Assembly (NCBI GenBank): GCA_016873255.1
Contig: VGXR01000014.1
Span: 1-45,691 of the forward strand
Source of the DNA: Planctomycetota bacterium
GTDB taxonomy: Bacteria; Planctomycetota; Phycisphaerae; Phycisphaerales; SM1A02
Length of the DNA: 45,691 nucleotides
Reading direction: 5' to 3'
Part shown: piece by piece, positions 14,193 to 21,513 of the stretch
How the letters are laid out: each line of letters opens with the position of its first letter
How positions within the stretch are numbered: the stretch's first letter is position 1
Notes under the pieces: model-generated
The model's database searches: none
What the model saw: the letters and a program-made list of their open reading frames with translations, nothing else
What the model was told of the DNA's origin: nothing
Translations under genes and position numbers: made by a program

Positions 14193-15095
14193 ATGGCAGG
14201 ACTCATCGTCACCGACCTCGACGGCACGCTGCTCGGCAAGGACGGCCGCGTCAGCGAGCGAAACCGAGCCGCGCTGCGGGCCGCGCACGACGCGGGCTGG
14301 CACGTGGCGATCGCCACCGGCCGTACCTGGGCGGAGAGCCACCGCGCGATCGACTGCATCGCGGAGGACGCGTTCTTCATCGGCGCGTCGGGCGCGTCGC
14401 TCCACGAGGCGGGCTCGGGCAAGGTGCTCGCCACGGCCACCGTGGACGCGCGCGCGGCGCTCGACATCGCCGATGCCATCATCCGGCACGGCCATCGCGC
14501 GCATGTCCTGCTCGATGCGTCGATGACCGGGCACGACTACGTGTTCCTGGGCACCGCCGAGCTCGACGCGGCGACCAAGTGGTGGCTCTCCGAGCATCCG
14601 GTGATCGCGCGCGACTGGCATGCCGCGCCCGACGATGCGCACGTGCACCTGGCCGACGCGGTGCTTCGCGTCGGGACCATCGGGCCCGCGGCGGAGATGG
14701 ACTCGATCGTCGGCCACGTGGAGGACCGGTGGGGCGGTTCGCTCGCGGTGCGCAGCTGGAGCGCGCTGACCGCGGAGGAGGCGATCGGCTCGCGCACGCA
14801 CATGCTCGAGGTCTTCAGCCGCACGGCCGACAAGTGGTCGATGGCGTGCGAGGCCGCGGCACGGCTCGGCATCGACCCGCAGCGGATCATCGCCCTCGGC
14901 GACGGGCTCAACGACCTCGACATGATCCGCAGCGCCCCGCTCGGCGTGGCAATGGGCAACGCCGACGAGCGGATCCGCCGCGTCGCACGCGCGCACACGC
15001 GTTCCCACGACCGCGACGGCGTGGCGGTGGCCGTGGAGGCGCTCCTCGGCGGCGAGCTGGTTCCGGGATGGCGGGCTCCGGAGGACGGCGCGTGA
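14193..15095 (+). CDS. HAD-superfamily hydrolase, Cof type
   Basis: Motif I is VTDLDGTLLGKDG (the first aspartate is the nucleophile), motif II/III lie around ATGRTW and the lysine in ADKWSM, and motif IV is ALGDGLNDLDMI, which together define a HAD phosphatase. The large insertion between motifs I and III (type C2 cap) and the length of 300 residues fit the Cof/sugar-phosphatase branch. The substrate is probably a phosphorylated sugar or small metabolite but cannot be specified. The start ATG follows GAGCACGCG, with no strong Shine-Dalgarno. Its stop overlaps the GTG of the next gene, so it is coupled with the large oxidoreductase-like protein. Confidence 0.88.
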   Translation: MAGLIVTDLDGTLLGKDGRVSERNRAALRAAHDAGWHVAIATGRTWAESHRAIDCIAEDAFFIGASGASLHEAGSGKVLATATVDARAALDIADAIIRHGHRAHVLLDASMTGHDYVFLGTAELDAATKWWLSEHPVIARDWHAAPDDAHVHLADAVLRVGTIGPAAEMDSIVGHVEDRWGGSLAVRSWSALTAEEAIGSRTHMLEVFSRTADKWSMACEAAARLGIDPQRIIALGDGLNDLDMIRSAPLGVAMGNADERIRRVARAHTRSHDRDGVAVAVEALLGGELVPGWRAPEDGA

Positions 15096-18000
15096 CGGCA
15101 TCGCCGGCCGAGCTCGTCGGTCGATGGAACCACCCGCTCATCCGCGCCGAGGGCACGGCGCTGCTCTCGGCGCACCAGGCGATCGTGAAGGGCGTGCTGG
15201 AGAGCGAGCTCGCGGTGGATGCGGTGGTTGGTCCGCGGCAGGTGCCGTTCGAGCCCGTGCTGGCGATGCAGGGCGACGCGGCGGTGGCGCGCGCGCTGGA
15301 AGCGCACCGCGTCACCGTCACCGACTCGGTGGACGCGGCGCGTGCGGTCAGCCTGGCGGTGCGCGCGGCAAGCGAGGGCAAGCGCGTGCTCGCCCTGGTG
15401 CCCAACGAGCAGCTCGCCATCGCCGTGGCGGTGGCGCGCCGGGCGCTCGACTCGCCGCGGCCCGGGGAGGGCGGCGTGGTGCTCCTCCTCGAGGACAATC
15501 CGTACCTCGTCCGGCTGTCCTCGCCGTGGCAGGCGGCACGGTCGATCGGGCTGCCCGTGGTGGCGCCCGACGGCATCGAGTCGCTGCGCGACGGAATCGA
15601 GCACGCCTTCCGGCTTGCCAACGCCGGCCCGCGCATGGCCGCGGTGGTGGCGCACTCGGCGGTGCTGCGCTCGATCGACTCGCCGCCGCTGCGCGCCAAC
15701 CGGATCACGGAGCGCGTGGAGCAGGTGGCGGCGCTCCTGCGCGCCCGGCGCGGCGCGCGTGCCCCCGACGGCGACGACGTGCTGCGCGTGGTGCGGCGGA
15801 TCGAGCTGAACCGCGCCAGCGCGCTGCCGAGCCCGGGCGAGCGCGAGCCGGTGGCGTTCATCACGGTCGGCCCGGCCTCGGTGGCGGTGCACCACATCCT
15901 CGGCGAGTTCGGGCTCGAGGGACGGGTGCCGGTCCTGGACCTCGGCTGCACCAACCCGATGGACGAGGCGGCGCTCGAGCGCGTCCTCACCCGCTGCGAC
16001 GACGCCATCGTGCTCGAGCCCCGGCCCGGGTCGGTGGCGCCGGACATCCTGGAGGTGGCGGAGGCGCTGCGCGCCCGCGGCGAGCGTCCCGCGCGTCTCT
16101 GGTGGGACCGCCTGCCGCCGCGCGACGGCGAGGAGGTGCGCCTCGAGGTGAACGACGGCGTCCGCACGTCGATCCTGCTGCGCAAGGCGCTGCACATCTT
16201 CCGTCGCGTGCGCACGGGCCTGGAGCACTCGCCGCGATTGGCCCCGTCGCAGCCGGACCTCGAGCGCATCGCGGTGCCGAGGCGCAGCTTCGGCCTCGGC
16301 CCCACCGGCGCCATGGACGCCGTGCGCGCGGTGCTCCCCGAGGCGGCCGCGGAGGTGGCGCGCGTCGATCCCGAGAGCCCCGAGGCGCCGCTGCGTGCAC
16401 TGGCCCTCGAGGGCACCGAGGTCCCGCAGGCGGAGGTGGTCACGGAGGTGGAGGTGTGGGACCGTCGGCGCTTCGCGCTGGAGGGGCCCGCGGCCATCCA
16501 GCAGGCCGCCATCGACCCGCAGCCGACCCTCTTCGTGGTGGTCGACCTCGGCGGCAGCGACGTGGTGGACGTGGAGCGCCTGGCCAATGCCGCGGTGCCG
16601 CTGCGATCGGCTGCACGGCTGCACGTGCGCCACTGCGACCTCAACGACCGGCCCGGGCTGCTTTCGGCGATCGTCCAGTCCGCGCGGCGCGATGGCGTGG
16701 GCGTCGTGGTGGCGCACGACGGGCCGCCCGCGCGGCGCGACATCCGGCAGCTCGAGGCGGGCGTCGCGGACGCGGACCGGCTGGGGTTCACGTCGCGGCA
16801 GAACCTGATCTGGCCCGCGGACACCGGCTGCGACGTCCGGCCGCTCCCGCAGGCGGTGCTGATGGAGCGCGGGCTCGAGCGCGGGCTCGACCCGCTCCAG
16901 ACCGAGTTCGTGCGCGAGCCCGTGGGCGCGGTCGACGGGCTTCCGCTTCGCATCGAGGTGCGCGCGCTCCTCGAGCAGGTGGAGGTGGTGCGGACCCGGC
17001 CGCCGCCGATCCACGTGCCGGAGGGCATGCGCGTGCGGCCGCCGAGGCCGGTGCATGCCCGCGAAGGGCGCTGGCGGTGCCACATCGCGGGGTACCGCGG
17101 CGAGCCCCCGGGCATCGCGACGCTTGCGCTCTGCGAGGCCGGTCGTGCCATGGGCTACCGGGTGCAGGCGATCTACCACCCGACGCCCATCGGGCCGGGG
17201 CGCCGCGCGTGGGGGCAGGTGCTCTTCACCGGCGAGGACCGCGGTCCCGATGCCCGCATCCACACGCCGCAGTGCCCCTACGGCGAGGCGGACCTGCTGC
17301 TCGGCTTCGACGCGGTGGAGACGCTGCGGGCGCTCGGGCCCGATCCGTACCTGCGCGTGGCAGCCCCGGACAAGACGTTCGTGGTGGCCAACCTCGGCGG
17401 CTTCGAGGACCAGGTGCAGGTGGAGCTCGCGGCGGCGACCGACACGCTGCCGCGCGCGCTGCCGCTTGCGACGCGGCAGGACGGCGCGATGCTCGCGGAC
17501 ATCTCGGGCACGGCCCGGCGCGAGTTCCTCACCGACCGCGTGGCGGACCTCATCGCCCTGGGCGCGGCGTTCCAGCGCGGGTTCATCCCGGTTTCGGTGG
17601 AGGCGATGGAGTCGGCGATGCGCCGGCTGGAGGCGCGCGGGTACGGCCGTTCGCTGGAGGCTTTCGACTTCGGGCGGCGCCTCGCCGAGGGGCTCGAGAC
17701 GGCCGAGGGCGACGGGCGCAAGGGCGAGAGCCTTGGACGGCTGGTCCGGCGCACGGCGCTGGAGCTCGAGGCATCGCGCCACGGCGGGCGCCGGCGCGCG
17801 CGGCAGTTCCGCGAGATCGTGCGCGGCGCGCTCGACGCCATGCCGGCCCTCTACGCGACCAACGACGGGCGCCAGGCGCTCCGCGACTTCGTGAACGCCT
17901 GCGCGCGCTGCGTGGCGTGGGGCGGGGTGCGCCACCTGCGCTGGTACGCGGGCCTGGTGCGCGACATGTACGACGCGGATGCGGATCGGTCGCTCTGCAC

Positions 18001-18448
18001 CTACGGGATCCTGCCGCTGGCGGAGGCGGTCCTCATCCGCGACGCGCTGTACGTGGCGTCCGTGCAGGCGGGCGTCGGCCAGGCGCGCCGGATCCGCGAG
18101 CGCCTCGGCGTGCGCGAGTCGCGCGGCGACCAGATGTTCCGCCGCTACCTCAACCGCGTGGAGATCGTGCTCGGGCGGGCGCGCTGGCGGCTTGACCTCC
18201 GCTCGAGCGACTGGCCGGCGCAGCTTGCGCTCCTCCTCTGGCGCGTGGTGCCCAACGAACTGCGCGGCCAGCCCGAGGAGCGGCGGGCGCGGTCGGCGGT
18301 GCTCGACCTTGTGGAGCGGGCCATCCACAACCCCGGCGAGCGGGATGCGTGGCTTGCTGCCGTCCGCGAGCTGCACGAACTGGCTGCTGCGCACCGTCTG
18401 CACGAGATGGCCGCACCGGACGTGGAGCGGATCGCATCGGGGCGGTAG
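15092..18448 (+). CDS. large protein resembling fused indolepyruvate:ferredoxin oxidoreductase, cofactor motifs missing
   Basis: The 1118-residue protein follows the order of the fused 2-oxoacid:ferredoxin oxidoreductases: a POR_N-like start (ALLSAHQAIVKGVLESELAV, about residues 25-190), a transketolase-C-like domain (VPVLDLGCTNPMDEAALERV, about 255-370), a central part at about 470-640 where the thiamine-diphosphate domain should be, a gamma-subunit-like domain (GYRGEPPGIATLALCEAGRA, about 665-870) and a C-terminal helical part. The expected thiamine-diphosphate motif (GDG/GDS...N) and the cysteine clusters for 4Fe-4S centres are not visible. It may be a non-catalytic or re-purposed homologue. 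The GTG overlaps the HAD gene stop (GTGA), with GGAGG upstream. There are no membrane segments or signal peptide. The relationship is recognised from local motifs, so it is moderately sure. Confidence 0.6.
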   Translation: MTASPAELVGRWNHPLIRAEGTALLSAHQAIVKGVLESELAVDAVVGPRQVPFEPVLAMQGDAAVARALEAHRVTVTDSVDAARAVSLAVRAASEGKRVLALVPNEQLAIAVAVARRALDSPRPGEGGVVLLLEDNPYLVRLSSPWQAARSIGLPVVAPDGIESLRDGIEHAFRLANAGPRMAAVVAHSAVLRSIDSPPLRANRITERVEQVAALLRARRGARAPDGDDVLRVVRRIELNRASALPSPGEREPVAFITVGPASVAVHHILGEFGLEGRVPVLDLGCTNPMDEAALERVLTRCDDAIVLEPRPGSVAPDILEVAEALRARGERPARLWWDRLPPRDGEEVRLEVNDGVRTSILLRKALHIFRRVRTGLEHSPRLAPSQPDLERIAVPRRSFGLGPTGAMDAVRAVLPEAAAEVARVDPESPEAPLRALALEGTEVPQAEVVTEVEVWDRRRFALEGPAAIQQAAIDPQPTLFVVVDLGGSDVVDVERLANAAVPLRSAARLHVRHCDLNDRPGLLSAIVQSARRDGVGVVVAHDGPPARRDIRQLEAGVADADRLGFTSRQNLIWPADTGCDVRPLPQAVLMERGLERGLDPLQTEFVREPVGAVDGLPLRIEVRALLEQVEVVRTRPPPIHVPEGMRVRPPRPVHAREGRWRCHIAGYRGEPPGIATLALCEAGRAMGYRVQAIYHPTPIGPGRRAWGQVLFTGEDRGPDARIHTPQCPYGEADLLLGFDAVETLRALGPDPYLRVAAPDKTFVVANLGGFEDQVQVELAAATDTLPRALPLATRQDGAMLADISGTARREFLTDRVADLIALGAAFQRGFIPVSVEAMESAMRRLEARGYGRSLEAFDFGRRLAEGLETAEGDGRKGESLGRLVRRTALELEASRHGGRRRARQFREIVRGALDAMPALYATNDGRQALRDFVNACARCVAWGGVRHLRWYAGLVRDMYDADADRSLCTYGILPLAEAVLIRDALYVASVQAGVGQARRIRERLGVRESRGDQMFRRYLNRVEIVLGRARWRLDLRSSDWPAQLALLLWRVVPNELRGQPEERRARSAVLDLVERAIHNPGERDAWLAAVRELHELAAAHRLHEMAAPDVERIASGR

Positions 18449-18553
18449 CGGCGCATGGTTATCGGCATGTGCGGGGGCGATTCCGTGTCCAGCCGGAACC
18501 CGGTGCGGAATCCGTTTGAAGTCCCCGGGCGTCGGGGTAGGTTCACCCGGCCC

Positions 18554-18568
18554 CGGGACGGGGTCCCG
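18554..18568 (+). promoter_or_regulatory. hairpin directly before a start codon
   Basis: CGGGAC-GGG-GTCCCG forms a 6-bp stem with a three-base loop, ending three bases before the ATG at 18572. A second stem CCCCG-GGCGT-CGGGG lies at 18523-18537. The only G-rich stretch that could bind 16S rRNA is inside the first hairpin. Confidence 0.45.
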
Positions 18569-18571
18569 CTG

Positions 18572-20635
18572 ATGCACCCGAGACTCGCCATCACCCTTGC
18601 GCGTGCGGCTGTCATTGCATTCGCGCTCGCTGCCTTTGGGTCGACTGCCGCGGCTGCGGACCAGTCGGTGGCGCGGCGGTGGAACGAGATCCTCCTTTCC
18701 TCGATCCGCCGCGACCTGGGGCGCCCCACCATCCACGCGCGCAACCTCTTCCACGTGAGCGTGGCCATGTGGGATGCGTGGGCCGCCTACGACACCGGCG
18801 ACTCGGAGCAGTGGATTGCCAACGAGCGGCACGTGGCCGCGGACCCTGCCGCGGCGCGTCGCGAGGCCATCTCGCACGCGGCCTATCGCGTGCTGCTGAA
18901 TCGCTTCGCGCAGAGCCCCGGCTACGCGACCATGCTGCCGCAGTACCAGGCGCTGATGGCGTCCCTCGGCTTCGACCACACGAACACCTCCACGCTCGGC
19001 GACTCGCCGGCGGCAGTCGGCAACCGCATCGGCATGGCCGTGGTGCAGTTTGGCCAGCAGGACGGGTCCAACCAGGCCGGCGGATACGCCAATCGCGTCT
19101 ACCAGCCGGTGAACCCGCCGCTGATCGTGGCCATGCCGGGGAACCCCTCCGCGATCGACGTGCGCCGGTACCAGCCGCTCGCGCTCAAGTTCTTCGTGGA
19201 CCAGAACGGCCATCCGATCCCGGACGGTTTCCCGCCGTTCCTGTCCGCGGAGTGGGGAGACGTGATTCCGTTCGCGCTGACGGCCGCCGACCGCGTGGAC
19301 CGCGTCCGCGACGGCAAGGTGTGGCACGTCTATCACGATCCGGGCGCACCGCCCGAGCTCAACGCCGCCGGCGACGCACGCTGGCGCTGGGGCCACGAGA
19401 TGGTGGTGACGTGGTCGTCGCACCTCGATCCGGCGGACGGCGTCACCTGGGACATCTCGCCCGCGGGGCAGGGCAACGTCACCGCGCCCACGGACGGGCA
19501 GTACGAGGGGTACTACCGCTACCTCGACGGCGGCGACATCGGCACCGGCTACGCCCTGAACCCCGTGACGGGCCAGCCGTACGCACCGCAGCACGTGAAG
19601 CGCGGCGACTACGCACGCGTGCTCGCCGAGTTCTGGGCCGACGGTCCGAGCTCGGAGACGCCGCCCGGGCACTGGTTCTCGATCCTCAACAAGGTGATCG
19701 ATGACCCGAACTTCCACCCGCGCCTGGTCGGCGTGGGCGCCGACGTCGATCCGCTGGAGTACGACGTGAAGGCGTACCTGGCGCTCGGGGGCGCGATGCA
19801 CGACACCGCCGTCAGCGTGTGGAGCGTGAAGGGCTGGTACGACTGCTCGCGTCCCATCTCGGCGATCCGCTGGATGTGCCAGCAGGGCCAGTCGAGCGAT
19901 ACGCTGCTGCCGCGGTACAGCGCCAGCGGCATTCACCTGATCCCGGACCACATCGAGCTGATCTCGGCCGCCACCACCGCGGCGGGCCAGCGGCATGAGC
20001 ACCTCGCCGGCTACGAGGGAGAGATCGCCGTGCGCGCGTGGCGCGGTGCCGGAGACCTCACGGACCCCGCCAACGAGGTCGCCGGCGTCGGCTGGACGCT
20101 CGGCCAGCTGTGGTGGCCCTACCAGCGGCCGGCCTTCGTCTCGCCGCCGTTCGGCGGCTACACGTCGGGGCACAGCGCGTACAGCCGCGCCGCGGCGCAC
20201 GTGCTGACCAAGCTCACCGGCAGCAAGTACTTCCCCGGCGGCCTCGGGGAGTTCGTGGCGCTGCGCAACCAGCACCTGGTGTTCGAGGACGGGCCAAGCA
20301 CAGACGTGCGCCTGCAGTTCGCCAGCTACTTCGACGCCGCCGACCAGAGCGCGCTCAGCCGCATCTGGGGCGGGATCCACCCGCCGTTCGACGACATCCC
20401 GTCCCGCGGGATCGGCGACCGGACGGGCCCGCAAGCGTTCAATGCAGCGCGCGCGATGTGGGGCACGCCCGCATGCGCCGCTGACCTCGACGGCGACGGC
20501 GACGTGGGCGGGGTCGACCTGTCGCTGCTGCTAGCGGCCTGGGGCACCGACGGCGGGGCCGACATCGACCGCGACGGCTCGGTGGGCGGGTCCGACCTCT
20601 CGAGCCTCCTCGTGGCCTGGGGGCCGTGCCCGTGA
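18572..20635 (+). CDS. secreted PAP2/vanadium-haloperoxidase-type protein with C-terminal dockerin-like domain
   Basis: A signal peptide (ITLARAAVIAFALAAFG..AAA) directs export. The central domain resembles the vanadium-dependent haloperoxidase/PAP2 acid phosphatase fold: CSRPISAIRWM, then GYTSGHSAYSRAAA near residue 530, and SRIWGGIHPPFD near residue 590, which fits SR-x5-H-x3-D exactly; the histidine would be the vanadate or phosphate-binding residue. Whether it acts as halogenase, phosphatase or neither cannot be decided. The last 50 residues hold two EF-hand-like repeats, DLDGDGDVGGVDLSLLLAAW and DIDRDGSVGGSDLSSLLVAW, the short dockerin-like domain common on planctomycete secreted proteins. 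ATG 18572 is chosen from the signal peptide; a GC hairpin sits just before it. The stop overlaps the next gene, also dockerin-tailed. Total 687 residues. Confidence 0.8.
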   Translation: MHPRLAITLARAAVIAFALAAFGSTAAAADQSVARRWNEILLSSIRRDLGRPTIHARNLFHVSVAMWDAWAAYDTGDSEQWIANERHVAADPAAARREAISHAAYRVLLNRFAQSPGYATMLPQYQALMASLGFDHTNTSTLGDSPAAVGNRIGMAVVQFGQQDGSNQAGGYANRVYQPVNPPLIVAMPGNPSAIDVRRYQPLALKFFVDQNGHPIPDGFPPFLSAEWGDVIPFALTAADRVDRVRDGKVWHVYHDPGAPPELNAAGDARWRWGHEMVVTWSSHLDPADGVTWDISPAGQGNVTAPTDGQYEGYYRYLDGGDIGTGYALNPVTGQPYAPQHVKRGDYARVLAEFWADGPSSETPPGHWFSILNKVIDDPNFHPRLVGVGADVDPLEYDVKAYLALGGAMHDTAVSVWSVKGWYDCSRPISAIRWMCQQGQSSDTLLPRYSASGIHLIPDHIELISAATTAAGQRHEHLAGYEGEIAVRAWRGAGDLTDPANEVAGVGWTLGQLWWPYQRPAFVSPPFGGYTSGHSAYSRAAAHVLTKLTGSKYFPGGLGEFVALRNQHLVFEDGPSTDVRLQFASYFDAADQSALSRIWGGIHPPFDDIPSRGIGDRTGPQAFNAARAMWGTPACAADLDGDGDVGGVDLSLLLAAWGTDGGADIDRDGSVGGSDLSSLLVAWGPCP

Positions 20636-21513
20636 TGCGGGCCTCGATCGGGGCGCTGTTGCTCCTGATCCAGCCTGTCGTCGCGGTGCGCGCGGGCGGG
20701 TTCGCGGCCTTCACGTCGGAGCACTCCGCGCGCGGCGTCCTCTACAACATGATGCTGTACCCGCCGCTGCCGATACCGAGCGAGGGCTTCGGCATGGCGG
20801 CGGCGGACCTCGACGGCGACGGCGACCTCGACCTGGTGCAGAACAACATGGCCGGCGCGGTGCGGCTCTACATGAACAACGAGGGAAGCGAGCGTGCGTG
20901 GCTGCGACTGCGCGTCGCCGGCACGGGTCGCGTGCGCGACGCGATCGGCGCCTCGGCGACGCTGGTGGCGCGCGGGCCGGACGGCGCGCTGCGTGCGCCG
21001 CAGTGGCGCGAGGTGCTGTGCGGCGGCAACGGTTACCTCGGGCAGTCCGAGACGACGCTGCACTTCGGCGTGGCCGACGCGGCTGCGATCGAGTCGGTGG
21101 AGGTGCGGTGGCCCGCGGGCGGCGGCGTGCGCCTCCTGCGCAACATGCCCGTTCGCGCCGGCTGGACCGCCTATCCGCCGTCACGGCTCGGCGACGTGGA
21201 CGGGGGCGGCTCGGTCGATGCCTCGGATTGGGCCGCGATCACGGCGTGGGGGCCCGGGCCGGTCATGCCGGGACGCGAGATGGCGGACCTCGACGGGGAC
21301 TGGTCGATCGGTCCTGCCGATGCCGACGCGTTCTGGGCGCGTGCCTCGGCGCCGCGCGGCGACCTCGACGGCAACGGCCAGGTGAACGGCGCGGACCTCG
21401 GTCTGCTCCTCAGCGCCTGGGGAGCGGCTGGAAGCGCCGCGGACCTCGACCTGAGCGGCGCGGTGGGCGGTGCGGACCTCGGGCTGCTGCTTACCGGCTG
21501 GACGAACGGCTGA
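20635..21513 (+). CDS. secreted ASPIC/UnbV-domain protein with one FG-GAP repeat and dockerin-like tail
   Basis: A signal peptide (ASIGALLLLIQPVVAVRAGG) is followed by a single FG-GAP/VCBS repeat (GMAAADLDGDGDLDLVQNN) and then an ASPIC/UnbV domain (RVRDAIGASATLVARG ... GGNGYLGQSETTLHFGVADA ... VEVRWPAGG). The C-terminal third has dockerin-like calcium loops (GDLDGNGQVNGADLGLLLSA and DLDLSGAVGGADLGLLLTGW) plus one or two weaker ones. Family members usually carry several FG-GAP repeats that form a propeller; here only one remains, so the protein (293 residues) is a minimal or truncated form. The ATG shares its A with the preceding TGA; GTG at 20632 or 20626 is also possible. Function unknown; probably extracellular and calcium-binding. 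Confidence 0.78.
   Translation: MRASIGALLLLIQPVVAVRAGGFAAFTSEHSARGVLYNMMLYPPLPIPSEGFGMAAADLDGDGDLDLVQNNMAGAVRLYMNNEGSERAWLRLRVAGTGRVRDAIGASATLVARGPDGALRAPQWREVLCGGNGYLGQSETTLHFGVADAAAIESVEVRWPAGGGVRLLRNMPVRAGWTAYPPSRLGDVDGGGSVDASDWAAITAWGPGPVMPGREMADLDGDWSIGPADADAFWARASAPRGDLDGNGQVNGADLGLLLSAWGAAGSAADLDLSGAVGGADLGLLLTGWTNG

Follow-up and report, generated by a model that had tools for sequence, protein, structure and literature searches.

OFORs count as redox enzymes of ancient origin that are sensitive to oxygen and are defined by thiamine diphosphate (ThDP) and Fe-S clusters, and the locus described here raises the question of what such a protein does when the sites for both are missing. 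In the window, the whole 45,691-nucleotide stretch of contig VGXR01000014.1 from a planctomycetotal bacterium that was analyzed, a long reading frame with a GTG start follows a HAD phosphatase gene, whose stop codon it overlaps by 4 bases (Table 1). The original prediction, made from the sequence, was that the product of this frame keeps the domain order of fused indolepyruvate:ferredoxin oxidoreductases (IORs) without their cofactor motifs and that the intact gene argues for selection. A new role was proposed for it, for instance in binding acyl substrates or CoA or in a complex with a catalytic paralogue, together with a coupling to the phosphatase. We refer to the protein as pseudo-IOR.

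Table 1. Features of the pseudo-IOR locus (window positions, except for the kinase genes, whose positions refer to loci L020 and L059)
Feature	Position	Strand	Basis or remark
HAD-IIB (Cof-type) phosphatase gene	14193..15095	+	DLDGT motif intact; 4-base overlap with pseudo-IOR
Pseudo-IOR gene	15092..18448	+	Cofactor-free homologue of fused indolepyruvate:ferredoxin oxidoreductase, 1,118 aa
PYR-like (POR_N) domain, residues about 15-215	15134..15736	+	AlphaFold and VIA match to 6n2n_A, 9bt4_A, PFORs; TIGR03336
GPRQVPF (residues 47-53), replacing catalytic YPGSP loop	15230..15250	+	Alignment; PRxxPF consensus
VDAARAV, with ThDP-activating Glu column at A82, D81 adjoining	15329..15349	+	R84 family-invariant
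Transketolase-C-like domain II, residues about 225-380	15764..16231	+	Among the two best conserved parts
ThDP PP domain remnant, residues about 395-545	16274..16726	+	Shortened, least conserved
WDRRRF, replacing MGDGTFF Mg-ThDP motif	16457..16474	+	
Former Fe-S segment, residues about 546-655	16727..17056	+	C580 left of seven cluster cysteines
Gamma-like (POR) domain, residues about 656-865	17057..17686	+	GVGGMG changed to GYRGEP (R669 in 32/33)
C-terminal helical region (DUF6537 position), residues about 866-1118	17687..18445	+	Aligned by hhalign
APH-like kinase gene in f1, example L020	4974..5990		
APH-like kinase gene in f1, example L059	7916..8896		

By single sequence, the relationship to fused IORs is weak. 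The NCBIfam model NF009589 matches pseudo-IOR with 41.3 bits (E 4e-11), below the curated fused-IOR cut-off of 816 bits, and Pfam POR scores 17.7 bits, under its cut-off of 27.4, the gamma region being covered by the NCBIfam and structure matches; TIGR03336 matches residues 25-323. For DUF6537, Pfam gave no direct match in the window protein (P0001) or in L010 and 28.2 bits in an f4 homologue, and the region is aligned by hhalign. A PDB sequence search returned no match with P0001 and, with a profile, only weak matches to TPP domains (E 0.04). By contrast, hhalign comparison of a profile of 23 family members with one of 8 catalytic Phycisphaerales IORs yielded probability 100 and E 3e-108 over 1,082 columns, spanning the full length, and at the level of profiles the homology to fused IOR is certain. 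VIA placed the AlphaFold model of pseudo-IOR (pLDDT 83.7, pTM 0.78) on known enzymes of this class, with residues 20-371 matching the 2-oxoglutarate:ferredoxin oxidoreductase 6n2n_A (Z 27.5, 3.2 Å, 298 residues) and residues 19-867 matching the PFOR 7plm_A (Z 26.4, 499 residues). The same structures ranked top when a canonical IOR was modelled likewise. The OFOR fold is kept in the predicted structure, and the fused-IOR domain order of the original prediction is borne out by the hhalign and VIA matches alike.

In OFORs, Mg-ThDP is held by a GDG motif and an Asn, and ThDP is activated by a Glu (PMC5020499). These and the cluster sites were scored column by column in a joint alignment of 65 proteins, with 33 rows from the pseudo-IOR family and 24 catalytic rows (8 from Phycisphaerales and 16 other catalytic IORs). 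The column of the ThDP-activating Glu in the PYR domain holds A, G, P, or S in 33/33 family rows and E in 24/24 catalytic rows, a result that hinges on a one-residue alignment choice, Asp81 adjoining the column in most family members. The CPGC/DTGC segment is deleted in the family, the GDG position is mostly occupied by D/E/S/T-R-R type residues, and that of the Mg-ligand Asn mostly by L or V; the GDG…N motif as a whole is missing from all 33 family rows, with D and N present in all 24 catalytic ones. Also missing from all or nearly all family members are MTG(H)Q and six of the seven Fe-S cysteines, and the first Fe-S position, the first Cys of CxxCxxC, survives as C580 (window 16829-16831) in 29/33. 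In the window protein, this cysteine sits in WPADTGC; the second cluster cysteine has been exchanged for Arg in 31 of the 33 members. The catalytic rows keep the cofactor columns, the exceptions being GDA in one row and the sixth Fe-S Cys, which is missing from the proteobacterial set. GDS occurs in some other catalytic Phycisphaerae, so the third glycine has no diagnostic value by itself. Judged from the alignment columns, the ThDP/Fe-S ligand set as a whole is lost, the ambiguity of the Glu column notwithstanding. The original prediction had named intact ligands, or the lack of a family match, as findings that would count against it; the tally and the profile comparison returned the opposite on both points, with the ligands gone and the match extending over the full length.

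The intact 3.3-kb frame was found again in dozens of independent genomes; therefore, the gene is not an assembly accident. In the survey of its conservation suggested at the outset, it was present in 21/21 family genomes that are at least 90% complete, the three genomes without it being 64-86% complete, and in 16/16 genomes of a class-wide draw; the named relatives are Phycisphaerales/Phycisphaerae MAGs. A count of the Nei-Gojobori type gave dN/dS of 0.039 (L002/L003) and 0.057 (L005/L006) for the congeneric pairs with the least saturation, with values of 0.042 and 0.027, respectively, in the former PP domain; farther pairs, which are saturated or affected by composition, were set aside. Pseudo-IOR is under strong purifying selection and the gene is not decaying, as had been argued from the intact frame. 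The order RluD-type synthase, TPR, HAD, pseudo-IOR, RlmN, IspH, and squalene/phytoene synthases is kept across the family and most of this block reaches the deepest member, G035, so that pseudo-IOR is inherited vertically. Within this block, an APH-like kinase gene lies between the TPR gene and the HAD or pseudo-IOR gene in most of the f1 family and is absent from the window. Two dockerin-bearing genes (DUF6851 plus dockerin and FG-GAP/UnbV plus dockerin; window 18455-21513) separate pseudo-IOR from RlmN in the window, and in the congener L058 the genes flanking their position are about 55 bases apart.

The cofactor-free proteins of the f1 and f4 forms constitute one clade (support 100/99) in a long-branched tree of cofactor-free and catalytic proteins from which the PP and Fe-S columns were excluded. 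Because of this single clade, cofactor loss probably occurred once within Phycisphaerales and was followed by long retention. Independent losses in f1 and f4 are disfavoured: trees placing either form with catalytic IORs were rejected at an AU p of about 0.02, a value obtained with long branches. The outlier L033 (f6x), likewise on a long branch, joins the cofactor-free clade at an SH-aLRT of only 94 and was excluded from the careful tree. In a distant f4 relative (L034; G051:C1:2152129-2155147), pseudo-IOR is apparently split over two reading frames. All 24 proteins sampled from other families or genera of Phycisphaerae retain CPGCPH and/or CxxCxxC, with GDG or GDS where read, and are catalytic by these motifs. 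Catalytic fused IORs of about 1,600 aa occur in the Phycisphaerae families f15 and f25 (L191:845-6460 on the + strand, L177, L178, L179, L190, and L193). In L191, Pfam identifies a C-terminal GltD-like flavoprotein (Fer4_20 and Pyr_redox_2), the tail of L177 looking alike by eye, which suggests an IOR that passes electrons to NAD(P).

With its catalytic and cofactor residues lost from the sequence, and with the predicted fold and the gene kept by selection, the protein has the properties of a pseudoenzyme; going by its motifs, it does not belong among the indolepyruvate:ferredoxin oxidoreductase enzymes and is best called a pseudo-oxidoreductase. Very probably, it now has a different, new role, and this part of the original prediction is supported as an interpretation. 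We consider it fairly probable that pseudo-IOR is an ancestral fused IOR without cofactors that has been kept as a putative binding or regulatory scaffold, which is the most likely role. An ancestral fused IOR in Phycisphaerales would have lost ThDP binding and the electron-transfer clusters, probably in a single event. What remained, a large shell of PYR, domain II, gamma domain, and helical C-terminus that presumably still dimerizes as OFORs do, would have been retained by strong selection for a task that involves neither redox chemistry nor ThDP. As a scaffold, the shell would act through domain II and the gamma domain, where conservation is highest; it is lowest in the former PP domain. 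Identity within the family reaches 94% or more at 67 positions, of which 38 are common to catalytic IORs, and the remainder include new charged residues. By alignment, three of these, R84, E134, and E454, fall near the old active-site loops, and R669 in the gamma glycine loop; the old ThDP cleft may have been closed or re-used by the former three. More tentatively, the 120-kDa OFOR shell might have been converted, once, into a new core protein of a bacterial family, neither cofactor remaining and the remodelled ThDP/Fe-S region serving a putative new ligand or reaction.

It may just as well be a new catalytic site that the invariant residues mark. Pseudo-IOR would then be a new enzyme on the old scaffold, with a putative active site in the remodelled region of domain II, former Fe-S segment, and gamma domain that needs neither ThDP nor clusters, a reading we hold to be unlikely. 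It would account for the more than 60 positions that vary little or not at all, among them the family-specific charged residues R84, E134, E454, D562, R669, R816, and D819, for the better conservation of domain II and the gamma domain relative to the former catalytic PP part, and for the retention of C580. However, a new catalytic motif is not recognizable, and the 38 invariant positions common to catalytic IORs are probably structural. No specific indication emerged for the proposed binding of acyl substrates or CoA. Nucleic-acid binding, for which the many arginines might speak, was rejected: the R+K content and pI of pseudo-IOR are near those of catalytic Phycisphaerales IORs, and the K-to-R exchange is probably due to GC bias.

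The proposed complex with a catalytic paralogue was rejected for the window's genome (G000, 97.5% complete), in which the search for a canonical paralogue found neither another POR domain nor any TPP_enzyme_C domain. As a separate canonical-looking IOR is present in only 2/37 family genomes (G021 and G024), a hetero-complex is also not the general explanation. TPP_enzyme_C was present in 14/14 control genomes, and its absence from G000 points to acetolactate synthase-type enzymes being missing there. The coupling to the HAD phosphatase holds as far as adjacency is concerned: the HAD gene immediately precedes pseudo-IOR on the same strand in 23/27 assessable loci, and 12 loci, including that of the deepest member, offer a start codon with a 4-base overlap of the HAD stop, this count being an upper estimate because the start codon closest to that stop was used. 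As an obligatory link, the coupling does not hold. Pseudo-IOR is kept in two genomes in which HAD is relocated (G022 and G014) and in two others without an orthologue-level match to HAD (G025 and G036); HAD is inverted in L061 and L063, and none was found near the f4 pseudo-IORs. That pseudo-IOR serves as a regulator or scaffold specific to the co-translated HAD-IIB phosphatase, as their adjacency might imply, appears in view of these exceptions decidedly improbable. In f4 (L138, L139, and L140), pseudo-IOR is encoded in a conserved three-gene cluster between a polytopic membrane protein and a Rho-like ATPase, and no partner common to the f1 and f4 forms was found. No single partner tracks the pseudo-IOR gene; for the scaffold that we favour, the HAD phosphatase, its usual neighbor, would be the first partner candidate but not an obligatory one.

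We give very little credence to pseudo-IOR still being an OFOR-type enzyme that binds ThDP or clusters non-canonically or via ligands of another protein. The fold is retained in the model, and shifting the alignment by one residue at D81 would bring an acid into the Glu column in most members, but the deletion of CPGC/DTGC, the replacement of both GDG and the Asn, and the loss of six of seven cluster cysteines speak against this reading, and no TPP_enzyme_C partner is encoded in the window's genome. A recently inactivated gene or a sequencing artefact, to which the high sequence divergence and the split relative in G051 might point, is refuted by the intact copies in dozens of genomes, dN/dS far below 1, and a deep single loss, and was rejected.

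A whole family of plankton-dwelling Planctomycetota retains pseudo-IOR under strong selection, and such a fixed, selected, cofactor-free lineage shows that the OFOR shell has value without its chemistry. The order still holds catalytic sister lineages, and the conversion of an enzyme into a pseudoenzyme can be studied here in a tractable case. The lineage also carries a warning about homology-based annotation, which would wrongly attribute indolepyruvate oxidation to these bacteria.

A literature search, with most subscription papers outside its scope, did not find a description of a cofactor-free OFOR. Among known systems, the fused IORs (NF009589/PRK13030 and NF009588/PRK13029) share with pseudo-IOR full-length homology and the order POR_N/PYR, transketolase-C-like domain, PP domain (a remnant in pseudo-IOR), and, going by the profile alignment, gamma (POR) domain and helical C-terminus; unlike them, pseudo-IOR lacks the ThDP Glu, GDG…N, and CPGC/DTGC, has one of seven cluster cysteines, and has a shortened PP domain. 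The solved OFORs (6n2n, 9bt4, 5b48, and PFOR 1b0p/6cip/7plm) share the predicted fold of domains I-II (VIA Z 25-27.5), the alignment with the PFOR structures extending to residue 867, but the identity in these matches is 11-13%, and their ThDP and cluster sites are absent from pseudo-IOR. An analogy, and no more than that, is offered by human transketolase-like protein 1, likewise a paralogue of a ThDP enzyme missing part of the cofactor site according to the delta-38 transketolase model (PMC3485151), which PMC6334435 contests. In that case, however, a different ThDP enzyme would be affected, and by a 38-aa deletion, whereas pseudo-IOR has lost the whole motif set together with the clusters, an ancient loss that has become fixed across a bacterial family.
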